From assembly GCA_003116975.1 (NCBI GenBank), contig BGKB01000013.1:620001-684000 (forward strand): DNA of 64,000 nt, in the 5' to 3' direction. How positions within the stretch are numbered: position 1 is the first letter of the stretch; each line of letters opens with the position of its first letter. The DNA comes from Aurantiochytrium sp. KH105. Lineage: Eukaryota > Sar > Bigyra > Thraustochytrida > Thraustochytriidae. Position numbers and translations under genes: made by a program. The notes beneath the pieces are model-generated. The model was not told the origin of the DNA, searched no databases, and saw nothing but the letters and a program-made list of their open reading frames with translations. Below, piece by piece: positions 23,376 through 29,846 of this stretch.

Positions 23376-26300
23376 ATGTCTGCGGCCGGGATTGAGGATG
23401 CGATCACATTACTGTCCGAGGGTACCAAGCATTTGAGGTACGTCAACAGCAGCAAGTGGTCGAGAGATGTGATTTGGGCTGACCGATAAATGAATGCTCT
23501 ACACGGCCCGATTGGCGCTATCTTTGGTGACTTTCCACAACCCCTTAACTTTTTTACCTCATTATCCATGATGCACAAGCGCAGTCTTCGGGGTAGAAAA
23601 ATCGGCGACGATGGCGCAAAGGCGCTGGCAGATGTGCTTGCGGAGAACTCGTCGCTGCAGACGCTAAAGTAAGTATTGTCAAGGGTAAAAGGCCTGTACG
23701 CAGAAAGCAAGAACGACTGACCAGACACCACAATTTTGTCTCATCGCACCAAACGAATGCGCAACGCTGCTGTCAATCGCTGTCATTCTGCGCTACGCAT
23801 GTTTGCTTCGCCGTCTCTACCACGATGCACGAGCGCAGTCTTTGGGAAAACAACATTGGCTCTGATGGCACAAAACCACTGGCAGCTGCGCTCACGAAGA
23901 ATTCGTCGCTGCTGACGCTCGAGTAAGTATCAGTGAGGAAAGAAGGACTGCACGAAAGGATCAAACCATGCTGACCAGCAGCTACGCTGTAATGAGCAAC
24001 TGACTTGTCGCACCAACCGTATGTACATCCCCGTCAATGATTCTTACATCACGATATGCACGTTTTGATTCGCAAATTTGTCCATTATTCGCAAACCCAG
24101 GCTTAATTACAATGAAATCAACGATGATGGCGCAAAGTCGCTAGCAGATGTTCTCGCAGAGAATACGTCGCTGTTGACGCTAGAGTAAGTGGTGATGAGG
24201 AATGAGGGGCTGTGCGCAAGGGGCAAAACGACTAATCAACAAGAACGGTACAATGAACATATTACACTATACGGATGCAACATGCTGCCGTCAATGATCC
24301 TCACATGACGCTATTCCCGTCTACCTCACCACATTGTCCATGATACAAAAGCTCAGTCTTGAGGAAAATGGAATCGGTAATGGTGCCGCAAAGGCGCTAG
24401 CTGGTGCCCTTGCAAAGACTTCATCGCTGCAGACGCTCAAGTAAGTGACAGGGAGCAACGAGGAACTCACCACGTGTCAGGATCAAGAACGACTGACCAG
24501 CAAGAATTTTGGAATGAATCTATCGCACCAAACGGATCCGCATCGCTGCCGTCAATCGTTGTTGTTTTCATTCAAATCATGTTGCTATTCACGTGTGTTT
24601 CATGACGTCGTCCCATGATTCATGAGCGTAGGCTTCACCGGAACAAGATCAGCTATGAAGGCGCAAAGGCGCTGGCAGATGCGCTCGTGAAGAACTCGTC
24701 GCTGCAGACGCTAAAGTAAGTAGCAGTGAGGAGAGAAAAAATGTGCACAAGGAGCAAGAACGACTGACCAGCAAGCACGTTTCGTCTTATTCTATAAACT
24801 TGTCGCACAAAACAAACGATCAACGCTGCCTTCAATCGCTTTCACACTGCACTGTGCACGTTTGTTTTCGCTGCTTTGTCCATGATGCACAAGCGCAGGC
24901 TTCACCGAAACTTTATCGGCGATGATGGCGCAAGTGTACTTGCAGATGCGCTTGTGATGAACTCATCGCTGCAGGCGCTAGAGTAAGTAGCAGTGAGCAG
25001 TGAGAAGTGAGAAAAGAAGGCTTGTCCGCAATGACCAAGATCGACTGACCAAAAAGCATGTTGCAAATGAAAATTGTCGCACCAAACGTATGCAAACGCT
25101 GCCGTCAATCGTTATTACACTCTGCCATCAACGTCGTCTTTATCACATTGTCCGTGCTGCACGAACGTAGTCTCGGGGTTAACAACATTGGCGATGGTGG
25201 CGCAAATGCACTAGCAGATGCGCTTGTGAAGAATTCGTCGCTGCAGATTTTAGAGTAAGTTACAGCAAGGAATACAGCAAGAAAAGTAAGGGGCATCCAC
25301 AAGGAAACAAGAATAACTGATCAGCGAACACATTGCAATTCAACTGTCGCACCAAACGTTTGCAAACGCTACCGAAAATCGCTTTTACACTGCGCTATGC
25401 ATGTCTGCTTCACTACATTGTCTATAATGCACATGCCCAGTCTCGGGGACAACAAAATTGGCCCGGGTGGCGCAAAGGTGCTTGCAGATGCGCTCACTAT
25501 GAACTCGTCTCTGCAAGTACTGGAGTAAGTAACAGAGAGAAAAGAAGGATCGTGCGCAAGAAAAAAGAACGACTTACCAGCGAGCACGTTACAATTTGAA
25601 CTGTCGCACCCAATGTCTGTGCAACACCGCCATCGATCATTCTAACACTGTGCTATGCGCGTTCGCTTCACTGCATCGTCCATAATTCACAAGTACAGGC
25701 TTCAGAATAACCATATCGGTGCCGAAGGCGCAAAGGCGCTGGCGGATGCGCTTATGGAGAATAAGTCACTGGTGGTGCTAGTGTAAGTAACAGTGGAGAA
25801 CAAAGAAGAAGTACCGTGCGCATCGAGCAAGAACGACTGACCAGCAAGCACGTTGCTGCTTCACAACACTGTCCATGTTACGCAAACGCGCAGGCTTTGG
25901 CGGAATGGGATTGGTGATGATGGCGCCAAGGTGCTAGCAGATGCGCTTGCGAAGAACCGGTGGCTACAGACGCTGGAGTAGGTGCAAATGGAAAACAAGG
26001 ATTGTACGCAGCGGCAACAATGACTAACCAGCAACCACGTTGCAATGCTCATCTTGCATCCGAATGGATGCAAAATGCCCACCGTCAATGTGTTTCACAC
26101 TGTGCCATTCATATTTTGATTCACTACATGGTTCCATGTTGCGCAAGGGCAGGCTTGGGTATAACGAAATCAGCCCAGCTGGCGCGAAGGCGCTAGCAGA
26201 TGTGCTCGCCAACAACAAGTCGCTGTTGTCTTATCTTGAGTACGTTGCAGAAAGACTCGGCACGGCAAGTTCTGTTCTCCGTTGACGTGCGATTCTCCAA

Positions 26301-29063
26301 TCTACAGCTTAAGCGGATATAAAATTGGTGACGCGGGAGCGGAGGCTTTAGCGATTGCACTGGAGAGCAATGATATTCTTAAAAAGCTAGGGTACGTTCG
26401 GTGATACCATACCACCACTTTTTGAAAAAGGTGACCATTGAAAGCTCACAAGCCGTATTTTAAACAGACTCTCTCGTCACCTTATCTCACCCAGCATCCT
26501 AACTCGTATTGAGACCCAAGTGAAGCTCGTGAATGACGAACTAAACGCTCTTAGCGCAGCCGCGCAAGAAGCTCTCGAGGCTGATGAAAAGGTACGCTGG
26601 GGTCGCGCCAAGCTCATGGTCGTGGGCAAGGGCGCCGCAGGCAAGACATCAACGATTCGCACGCTTCTAGGTCAACCGTACAATCCTGATCACGACTCGA
26701 CAATCGGGGTGGATCTTAAGTTGATGCGCACGCGTGACTGGGAAGAGCGCAAACATGTCGGCGGCGCAGATCTTGGCGAGCAATTTGCAAAGTACAAGTA
26801 CCGGCAGCAAGACGTTGCCAAGGATCCCTCCCGACACTCGTCAAATGATGTGGTGAGCCCCCCTCAATCTCTGGGGAATAAGTCTACCTCGACTAGTGCG
26901 TCGATGGCGTCGTTTGGCGACAAGGAGATTGCCAAAGCCGTCAGTACACCACTTCGTCTTCATATAAAACAGCAAGCCGACAAGCCAGACGAGGAGATCA
27001 GTTTCACAATCTGGGATTATGGTGGGCAGGAGGTCTTTTACGCTCTGCACCATTTGTTCTTGACGCAATACGGCATCTACATGCTGGTTTTCGACATGCG
27101 CGAGGTGCTGGGCAAGGAACGTTTCAGGGAAAAGCTCGACGAGAAAGAGTACGCAAAGCTCGCCTCGCAAGAAGATTCTTTGGAGACGCTTCGCTTCTGG
27201 ATTGACTCCATTCGTCTGCACGCACCGGATGCAAGTATTATTCTCGTGGGGACACATCTGGACCAGGTAACGGGCTCTGAGGAGCATGAGGAGATCGAAG
27301 ACACCTTAGAAACGAAGGTTCTAGACAGGCGTGGTGTGGAGTCACTCGAGATACGGAACTACAAGGCGCATCTCTGTTTCTTCCCGATCGACAACACTCA
27401 CCGGGATTTCAAGGACAACTGCATCTTGTCACTTCGTGAGTCGCTTTTGAAGGCTGCTGCAGACAAAGACTTTGTCCAAAAGAAGGTACCATTACGGTGG
27501 TCCTACTGTTTGGAAAAGCTGCTCTTGCAAGACAAGGATTACTTGTCGCTAAATGCGGTAGAGGAGTTGGCAATAACAAATTGCCACGTCTCGAAAGAAG
27601 ACGTGTCCAAGATGCTCGAGTACATGCACGAACTCGGCGTGCTTGTGCACCTGACGACAGGCCAACATGACGTGCTTCGACAGATTGTCGTGATCCGTCC
27701 GCAGTGGCTGCTGGAAAACCTATCGCGTGTTATTTGTGACTCCTTTCATATGAAAAGACACAAGAGGAAGCTGTTGTATCAAAAACAACTGCCGAGAAGA
27801 CTCAAAGTTGCGCTCAATGCCTGGTCACAGCGTGGAGTTGCCAGTCGGGAACTACTCGAGTGGCTATGGCAATGGGAACCAGTCGACTACCTTGTTGAGC
27901 TGATGCACGCAATGCTGTTGGCGTGCCCAAGTCCATGGATCGATGACATCGACGAGGAGGGCGATTTCGTCGACGAGGAGGGCGCTCTTCTAATTCCAAG
28001 TCTTTTGCAACCTGTGAAAGATTCTGTAAGGGAAGAGGCTTTGAAAGGTCTAAAGGGACCACGCGCCTTGGCTTTTGTCAGCTTCAAGATCCTTCCCAAA
28101 GGTGTGTTTCAGCGCTTCATTACCAGTCTCATACAGAGTCTGCCGGACCTCGTGGGCGTGAGAAATGGTGTTGTATTCTCAAACTTTGCGAGTCTTGCCT
28201 TTGACAATGTGGACGTGATTCTGGAAACGAGTGGCAGGCGCATAATGCTTCACTTTGAGACACTCGCGAACAAAAGTCTGAAGAATCACGTCAAGATTAT
28301 TCAGCATTGTCTCAGGAGCATCGATTCGTGTTTCATGAGGGGAAATCTTGGACCAAAGCTCTTTCTGAGCTCTGACGGCTCCGATTGCAAGGAAGCGTGT
28401 GCTTCTGTCGACGCACTTGCAGATGCTACAAAGAAAGGAGTTTCTTCGTTGCAAAGGGGAAAGCGGCTTCCTTTGGAACGGTTTTCACCATTTGTGGAGG
28501 ATGGTGAGGCCGCGCGGGGCCTACATGCATCTGTCACGAGTGACGTCAAGCCCTTCGATGTCTTCTTGTCGCATGCCTGGGGTGAGAACAGAGGAGTTCA
28601 CGAAAAGGTGAAGGCTGTTGCGGGCGCACTTGAAAGTCGCGGAATTCGCTGCTGGCTCGATGAGAAAGATATCGGCATGGAGGTTCTCGATTCGATGGCG
28701 GATGGTATTGACCGGTGCAAAGCGGTTGTGGTCTTCGTGACCCGAGAGTACATGAGGAAGGTCAACAAGGGAAGGATGGAGCTCGACAACTGTCGAAACG
28801 AGTTCTGTTATGCTCTACAGCGCGTAAAGCCAGCGAGTATGATTCCATGTGTATTGGAAAAAGAGATGGAGGACATGGGCATGTGGGGGGGTCGTTTCGG
28901 GATATCGTGGAGTGGCAATCCATTGTATGTCCGAATGTTGAATGGGGGCAAACTAGACGAGGTGGAAGCTCTTGTGTGGTCAATTAGACAAGCTATTGGT
29001 TTGCAAGAGGATGCCGCGAAGTCTTCTGGAGCAGCTGAACATTTTCATGAGGAAGACGCTTAG
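23376..29063 (+). CDS. LRR-Roc-COR-TIR protein (ROCO family with TIR domain), 14 exons
   Basis: Predicted exons: 23376-23437, 23585-23668, 23839-23922, 24101-24184, 24357-24440, 24632-24715, 24899-24982, 25171-25254, 25441-25524, 25699-25782, 25894-25977, 26153-26239, 26308-26391, 26468-29063. All 13 introns are GT-AG and phase 2, giving 1222 residues. Exons 2-13 each encode one ribonuclease-inhibitor-type LRR (28 residues; 29 in exon 12; consensus near NxIGDDGAKALADAL). The intronless last exon holds a Roc GTPase (P-loop GKGAAGKTS 411-419, DYGGQE 541-546, THLD 620-623), a COR dimerisation region (about 695-1035) and a TIR domain (about 1053-1175, starting FDVFLSHAWGE). TIR Glu1136 (RNEFCYAL) aligns with the SARM1 catalytic Glu, so NADase activity is possible. 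It is probably a cytosolic sensor or signalling GTPase. The start is tentative: the frame is open upstream and a 5' exon is possible. Confidence 0.88.
23585..26391 (+). repeat. Tandem array of LRR exon-intron units
   Basis: Twelve successive exons of 84 bp (one of 87) recur at mostly 254-275 bp spacing (195 and 155 bp near the 3' end). The introns are related too: most carry recognisable versions of GAACGACTGACCAGCAAGCA after the donor, a TGTCGCACCAAACG-like segment mid-intron, and TTGTCCATGATGCACAAGCGCAG before the exon. The unit that duplicated was therefore exon plus intron. Intron lengths are 147, 170, 178, 172, 191, 183, 188, 186, 174, 111, 175, 68 and 76 bp. Confidence 0.9.
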
Positions 29064-29366
29064 GACGTTGAGGTGACGTCGATAGCGACAGGGATGGGAG
29101 TCACGAGCACAAGCGCATCGAGCAAATCTGACGATAAGAACGAGAGCAACGTCGACTCAGCAGAGAACGAGATTGATGACGAGAGGGACGAGAATATAGC
29201 TGGAGCATGTGGAGAGCGGAGAAGGATTGCCCAAGAAGGTGACCAAGATGTCGTTGAGCCGTACAGCATGGACAGTGACAATGATGAGGAGAAGACGAGA
29301 TGGGTGAATAATTATGCGGACGCGAAGGCTAGAGATGTGGACCTTTCAACTTGCAAGCCGGAGTAA
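29064..29366 (+). other. In-frame open extension after the TIR gene stop codon
   Basis: Directly after the TAG at 29061-29063 the same frame stays open for about 100 codons, to a TAA ending at 29366. It encodes an acidic Ser/Asp/Glu-rich stretch (for example NEIDDERDENIAG). This could be a former C-terminal tail cut off by a nonsense change, a read-through extension, or 3' UTR that is open by chance. Confidence 0.35.
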
Positions 29367-29846
29367 ATATAATCGTGACAATAAGGTACAATTGGCATCT
29401 TCCGTTTGTGGACACCGATGGAGTCTTTGACTTCAACAAGTTCCAAGGCAAGAACACTGATGTAAATTTTCCTTGCAAACTTGTTTCAAATTCTACTTTC
29501 CTTGTTTCCTTGCCAAAGCATCTACAACCAAAATGCAACGCGTCCTTTCTTGTTGCCCCGTACCGATCGTGTTCAGATTCAGATGGGAAGCCTCGTCTCA
29601 AATTGTGTTTTGTCTTGATCTTGTTTAAAAACTTCGGCATCTGGGGACCAGCGCATCAAGCTTATTATTTCATCGCGCCCATTGCCCGAGCCATCTTCGA
29701 GGACAGCTGTAAAGAAAATTAATAGCAGGGATCTTGACGAATGTCAATATGTATTATCAGAGTGACCAGACGATGGCGAACAATCATGGCACAAATTGAT
29801 GAGGTGTAGGCAGCTTCAGCAGCGGCTCGCAGCGACTTATCTTCAA
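29367..29846. other. Intergenic region
   Basis: No confident gene. An open frame at 29351-29722 (+, 123 codons) has no recognised domain and overlaps the end of the preceding extension in another frame. A minus-strand frame covers the same bases. Confidence 0.4.

Follow-up and report, generated by a model that had tools for sequence, protein, structure and literature searches.

The stretch of Aurantiochytrium sp. KH105 DNA analysed here (the window, 64,000 nucleotides) contains, at positions 23376–29063 of the forward strand, a gene for a leucine-rich repeat (LRR) protein that ends in Roc, COR and TIR domains. Rebuilt from the sequence, the gene has 14 predicted exons separated by 13 introns. 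All 13 introns are GT-AG introns in phase 2 and are 68–191 bp long, and the coding sequence comprises 3,669 nt including the stop codon (1,222 amino acids), with no internal stops. Exon 1 (23376..23437, 62 bp) holds the start codon, ends in phase 2 and is present too in the second haplotype of the gene. It is followed by 12 LRR exons, 11 of 84 bp and one of 87 bp. LRR exons 1–10, each of 84 bp and each recovered in the rebuilt gene, by a profile scan and in the second haplotype, lie at 23585..23668, 23839..23922, 24101..24184, 24357..24440, 24632..24715, 24899..24982, 25171..25254, 25441..25524, 25699..25782 and 25894..25977. LRR exon 11 (26153..26239, 87 bp) is the first half of a pair that closes the array, while LRR exon 12 (26308..26391, 84 bp) encodes the terminal repeat and is unlike the interior exons in sequence. 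The final exon (26468..29063, 2,596 bp) encodes Roc, COR and TIR together.

Eleven LRR exons of the gene were used to build a profile that required AG/GT splice borders. Within the 64-kb window it matched exactly the 12 LRR exons and nothing further on the forward strand, and it had no match on the reverse strand. The anatomy given in the original prediction (12 single-LRR exons, 13 GT-AG phase-2 introns and one exon for Roc, COR and TIR) held at each point checked. It had also been proposed that any LRR exon could be skipped or swapped in frame. None of the 66 joints of an LRR exon to a later LRR exon in the window gene (11 of which are the real joints) gives a stop codon, and across the 26 related loci described below 13 of 2,400 such joints do so; the part of the claim that does not stand concerns the end of the array, which is closed by a pair of 87 bp and then 84 bp in 22 of the 26 loci.

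The window protein scores over the curated Pfam cut-offs for LRR_6 (173.7 bits), Roc (69.5), TIR_2 (58.6) and COR-A (42.8), bearing out the Roc, COR and TIR domains that had been claimed. Neither a NACHT nor an NB-ARC ATPase is among the eight Pfam families found at E ≤ 0.001, and Roc-COR takes that place. The Roc GTPase domain occupies approximately 26610..27263, with a P-loop at 26625–26651 and the best Pfam stretch (residues 523–623) at 26961–27263; the P-loop and a DxxGQ-type motif are readable in the translation, and GTP binding and hydrolysis are predicted. COR-A (residues 701–805) lies at 27495..27809 and is identified both by Pfam and by a fold match to ROCO proteins via a 76%-identical relative, for which a structure search ranked ROCO folds first. 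With tandem Roc and COR domains predicted from its sequence, the window protein is a ROCO GTPase. TIR_2 (residues 1056–1158; 28560..28868) is identified by Pfam and by model and fold comparisons, and this part of the protein is a TIR fold. The codon at 28800..28802 encodes a conserved Glu in the helix between the third and fourth strands, where a Glu plays a role in TIR NADases. This Glu is residue 91 of the modelled fragment, inside helix 87–98. Of 27 aligned rows, 26 of them picked from TIR-bearing homologues, 25 have Glu at this position, as do 10 of 10 rows of another alignment, and a profile alignment pairs the residue with a Glu of Cat1. The union of ROCO and TIR had been called uncommon, which does not hold here: precomputed Pfam assignments place TIR in at least 46 of 103 homologues.

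The second haplotype of the gene was found on contig C197, where a 1-kb probe taken 9.5 kb downstream of the gene matches at 97% identity in the expected position. This copy has the identical set of 12 LRR exons in identical order. The two haplotypes differ at 36 of 1,011 bases in the LRR exons and by 4–9% in the 11 introns between them; every indel within the gene falls in introns. The ratio of nonsynonymous to synonymous substitution rates (dN/dS, omega) is 0.29 for the LRR exons and 0.22 for the final exon, whose frame length is equal in both haplotypes. The low omega, the confinement of indels to introns and the equal frame length indicate that purifying selection acts on the 12 LRR exons as coding sequence. 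The LRRs carry 15 amino acid changes; residues 5 and 26 account for one each, and residues 2 and 3 are unchanged.

With 53 of 244 candidates scored, the final exon has matches at no fewer than 62 genomic places. We defined a family set of 26 loci, haplotypes counted separately, with a final exon at least 51% identical to that of the window gene; the fragments C5:73704 and C21:611885, the C2 locus (49–52%) and all loci below 49% were left out. The family scan admitted only phase-2 exons of 72–93 bp in steps of three, so that phase and divisibility by three were built into it, but the peak in exon length at 84 bp was not. Across the 126,924 bases scanned, 327 LRR exons were found in the sense direction, of which 286 are 84 bp long; the reverse strand gave none. 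The number of LRR exons detected at a locus ranges from 2 (C342, interrupted by a run of N) and 4 (C90) up to 30 (C20, where the array may extend further). At C98:105300–108300 and C89:32400–35450, LRR exons of 78 bp with a period near 200 bp were observed upstream of the 84-bp block of the same gene, along with a 75-bp exon in both.

In all 11 genes compared, the introns between LRR exons are more similar to one another than shuffled introns are (C149, 0.949 versus 0.648). Because the introns of one gene resemble each other, clearly in young arrays and faintly in the window gene, the duplicated unit appears to be an exon together with its intron. Tandem Repeats Finder reports a 266-bp unit in 8.3 copies for the C149 array and no array for the window gene, indicating that the window array is old; the window gene is an old, stable family member.

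The repeats within an array differ chiefly at a few codons. Codons 2, 3, 5, 25 and 26 were preset from the LxxLxLxxNxL motif, and the set 2, 3, 5 and 26 was picked afterwards, position 25 varying little. Nucleotide difference between units (pi) at these four codons is 0.516 in C149, where intron pi is 0.052 and pi at fourfold-degenerate scaffold sites 0.086, and 0.578 in C72, where the corresponding values are 0.027 and 0.033. Across nine arrays, pi at the four codons is 0.41–0.64 and intron pi 0.027–0.358; the window gene has 0.602 and 0.358, respectively. In 441 within-gene exon pairs differing by no more than 35%, dN of the preset codons is 0.71 versus 0.13 elsewhere, and the ratio to the dS of all codons is 1.8, rising to 3.6 in the C149 group. 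From the general structure of LRRs, residues at these positions are predicted to face the concave side and the ligand. In the predicted model of P0004 the strand consists of residues 26–28 of each repeat, placing the variable residues on or beside the strand, and the intron splits codon 28 within it. It had been suggested that the layout would allow diversification by alternative splicing or unequal crossing over. Arrays of the family do vary in unit number and in binding-face codons, but the two haplotypes of the window gene itself are collinear. For the family, diversification of the arrays through unit turnover and change at the predicted binding face is well supported at the level of sequence.

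LRR number was then compared between nine probable haplotype pairs, assigned by flank homology that mostly extends over about 0.7–1.4 kb on one side only. Equal numbers were found in five of the nine (C13/C197, C21/C5, C138/C69, C43/C46 and C200/C97). C149 and C72 differ but were not used for copy number because of a run of N inside the C72 array, and three of the eight usable pairs have unequal numbers: C16/C41 (12 versus 15 LRR exons), C98/C89 (14 versus 16) and C20/C254 (at least 30 versus 24). The first of these is the best-supported difference in copy number between probable haplotypes, with a flank that is collinear over 5.8 kb at 97.5% identity. Its LRR exons are 79–95% identical to best partners that lie out of order, and dS of the final exon is 0.20, far above the divergence of the flank. 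The gene and the near flank of this pair (90.5% identity over 1.25 kb) are far more diverged than the next 5.8 kb (97.5%), a local divergence that could possibly reflect balancing selection or conversion from a paralogue. C101/C303 was dropped as a haplotype pair, since a probe 15 kb downstream of C303 matches C65 and not C101, and C90 and C342, the latter containing N, were left unpaired.

Taken together, we propose, with a probability of roughly 0.6, that the window gene encodes a cytosolic LRR-Roc-COR-TIR receptor of a thraustochytrid, belonging to a lineage-expanded family that works like NLRs. According to this model, a ligand bound by the LRR arc would alter the GTPase or dimer state of Roc-COR, which would bring TIR domains together and switch on TIR signalling, perhaps through cleavage of NAD+. 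Near-identical units, with the introns serving as joints, would undergo unequal crossing over or gene conversion, which would shift repeat number and homogenize the units, while selection would keep the concave codons different. As the phase-2 intron cuts codon 28 in mid-strand, each new exon–exon joint would create a composite strand from two exons.

Several observations weigh against this proposal. The haplotypes of the window gene are collinear and have the same LRR number, and 6 of the 15 LRR differences between them (window positions 23839–25977 versus C197) fall at residue 19, on the helix side, in LRR exons 2, 5, 6, 8, 9 and 10. The introns of the window gene are barely more alike than shuffled partners (0.729 versus 0.672). 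In older arrays the excess at the four codons over fourfold-degenerate scaffold sites is small (C254, 0.408 versus 0.389; C21, 0.422 versus 0.320), and over all genes dS of the preset codons is also 0.71, which gives an omega of 1.0. Incompatible combinations of 5′ and 3′ variable codons within exons were absent from all seven nested groupings. A probe 15 kb downstream of C16, for which 40 of 85 candidates were scored, had no complete match on C41, so that the allelism of this pair rests on the 5.8 kb of collinear flank. With respect to the protein, full-length superposition on ROCO structures is poor (template modelling score 0.3–0.4, root-mean-square deviation above 20 Å in most full-length rows); individual domains match, and their arrangement is tentative. 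Finally, TIR domains of adaptors (MyD88, MAL, IL-1RAcP) score as high as those of NADases in the fold comparison, such that the TIR fold does not tell activity.

The exon-per-repeat layout could instead be a passive relic of duplicated LRR–intron units, with array length drifting neutrally and the proteins acting as conventional signalling GTPases of the ROCO type that provide no recognition repertoire. Such a relic would fit the shared set of 12 exons in the window haplotypes and the equal counts in five of nine probable pairs, and also an apparently intronless LRR-Roc-COR-TIR gene at C204:60636–64028, where LRR, Roc and TIR matches share a single 1,448-codon frame and which suggests that the introns are not needed. 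Neutral drift does not, however, yield a nucleotide difference of 52–58% at four codons when introns of the same units differ by 3–5%, and we consider this explanation unlikely. Diversity could also stem mainly from alternative splicing of the LRR exons in a single cell, as has been suggested for ROCO genes of Ectocarpus, but splicing would leave the hypervariable codons between units unexplained. This route to diversity is open in principle, since the exons are frame-neutral (no stop at any of the 66 window joints), and splice variants of brown-algal ROCO genes are reported to carry different LRR sets (PMC11378527). Deposited Hondaea models also skip LRR exons in frame (e.g. P0006 compared with C6), but these are AUGUSTUS predictions (PMC5854782) and were rejected as evidence of splicing. 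That splicing is the main source of diversity appears quite improbable.

The concave codons might also be diversified by a targeted mutation or copying process, beyond selection on point mutations. These codons are near saturation in the youngest array (C72, pi 0.578 versus 0.027 in introns), and codons 1, 4 and 6, which adjoin them, differ more at their third positions than scaffold codons do in C149 (0.17–0.30 versus 0.10) and C72 (0.29–0.57 versus 0.045), values that rest on one to three units each and include a codon-4 change in C72 that is not silent. Blind mutation of whole codons would, however, alter fourfold-degenerate third positions within variable codons whose first two bases are equal, and these differ in 0 of 25 comparisons within C149 and 1 of 20 within C20; for C41 the figure is 17 of 33. 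The variable codon sets are compatible with a tree within exons, and the idea that they are words re-assorted by half-strand shuffling was dropped after the compatibility test, which found no incompatible pairing of 5′ and 3′ words inside exons in any of the seven groupings, one to three between the codon 8–9 word and the 3′ word in four of seven and one across introns in four of seven. No donor array was found except C52, an LRR array without a ROCO match; as it stops at the contig end, it was rejected as a donor cassette in favour of a broken contig. Moreover, concerted evolution of the remaining sequence combined with diversifying selection gives the same picture. A targeted process seems the least likely of these explanations. 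A more far-reaching version, in which targeted copying or mutation at the binding strand of near-identical LRR cassettes, with hypervariable codons saturated in the youngest arrays, would make the TIR-ended family a germline and perhaps somatic analogue of the variable lymphocyte receptors, seems very unlikely.

LRR-ROCO genes of brown algae were reportedly described by Zambounis in 2012. Brown algae have 111 ROCO genes in which, two small groups aside, the LRRs are encoded one by one in phase-2 exons of 72 bp; splice variants and positive selection on the concave face are reported, and LRR-ROC-COR is given as the sole arrangement (PMC11378527). These genes resemble the one described here in being stramenopile ROCO GTPases with one LRR per phase-2 exon and arrays of variable length (4–49 LRRs in brown algae), with positively selected sites placed on the concave face and an immune role proposed (PMC11378527). 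They differ in having 72-bp exons, LRRs of 23–24 residues, no TIR domain and multicellular hosts, compared with exons of 84 or 87 bp and a TIR domain here, and, on our reading of their consensus, in having the strand inside one exon (PMC11378527). In the unicellular protist Tetrahymena, tandem LRR exons of equal length with phase-2 introns and a split junction codon have been described; T. thermophila genes have 1–51 LRR exons, and ectopic recombination has been proposed (PMC6564038). There, the exons are 90 bp long, the genes number in the thousands and the accessible portion of the account describes no Roc-COR-TIR part (PMC6564038). The human NODs share the 28-residue LRR, one per exon and in the same register (X, then L..N.L ... 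L..L) (PMC2747839). Compared with the NOD2 structures 5irm, 5irn and 5irl, the LRR arc fold is 41–44% identical in the matched part. NOD-type NLRs carry a NACHT ATPase rather than Roc-COR and are not known to have a C-terminal TIR domain.

Joining of Roc-COR to TIR is described for a protein of Chondrus crispus, which has TPR repeats instead of LRRs (PMC11378527). For the Trichoplax ROCO set TIR is listed in a figure legend, from which a Roc-COR-TIR linkage would follow (PMC4104024); in the available parts of both sources no exon-per-LRR array is described for these ROCO-TIR proteins (PMC11378527, PMC4104024). ROCO proteins are also mentioned in Schizochytrium aggregatum (PMC11378527). Literature searches found no report of thraustochytrid ROCO genes that combine 84-bp LRR exons with a terminal TIR domain, nor, on combining thraustochytrids with LRR/immune or ROCO/TIR, any paper on this gene family; a term search of one comparative-genomics paper on thraustochytrids found neither LRR nor immun (PMC12258536). 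Since it has been published for brown algae, Tetrahymena and human NODs, the one-exon-per-LRR layout is of a known kind. In the present family it is joined to a TIR signalling end, LRR numbers vary from copy to copy, differences lie mostly at the predicted binding surface and the host is a thraustochytrid. The family adds thraustochytrids to the organisms known to have LRR exon arrays ready for shuffling, and in it such arrays are linked to a TIR effector. Considered alongside the arrays of brown algae (72 bp), Tetrahymena (90 bp) and human NODs, it suggests that one-exon-per-LRR arrays may arise repeatedly where recognition must diversify. Comparing introns with binding-face codons within one array offers a direct measure of diversifying selection, and because Hondaea has been brought into axenic culture and has a compact published genome (38.7 Mb; PMC5854782), the long-standing idea that such arrays provide a recognition repertoire is testable in a cultured single cell.

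The nearest named proteins to the window gene are those of Hondaea fermentalgiana, and the lineage is Stramenopiles, Labyrinthulomycetes, Thraustochytrida. Over 797 aligned residues, a Hondaea protein is 97.7% identical to the window final exon. Judged by protein identity, the DNA comes from this species or one closely related to it. Among the seven Hondaea proteins compared, identities to loci C201, C6 and C43 are 99.2–99.6%, and those to other loci are lower, down to about 62%. The Aurantiochytrium assembly looks like both haplotypes, because it spans 76 Mb, compared with 38.7 Mb for the published haploid genome of Hondaea (PMC5854782), and the best Roc matches are paired. The deposited Hondaea model of the window gene (P0001, 943 amino acids) has retained three LRRs out of 12, one of which is incomplete, and has a different end. 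Like the other deposited Hondaea models it is an AUGUSTUS prediction, with RNA sequencing not mentioned in its source (PMC5854782), and it therefore neither supports nor refutes exon use. Window positions 29064–29367, beyond the stop codon, could encode the end of P0001 after further splicing (as read by eye), and the C-terminus may be annotated differently. For the six genes compared, some of the LRR exons are missing from the deposited models, and none of the same seven proteins matches the most uniform arrays (C149, C156 and C72) at more than 65%. Short-read assembly or prediction may lose array genes of this sort.

Further relatives lie outside the 26 loci. At C54:206305–212997, LRR exon-like matches stand upstream of a 1,024-codon frame with Roc and TIR, and C117 has a similar frame of 1,040 codons; these are probably a further, more distant array subfamily. 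A second ROCO-like group was observed at 15 places, including C84:297372–299564 and C60:5437–7635, and is 34–36% identical to the window final exon. Its open frames comprise 835–1,369 codons, with a TIR_2 match at the end in 15 of 15, and Hondaea homologues such as P0016 have WD40 together with Roc, COR and TIR.

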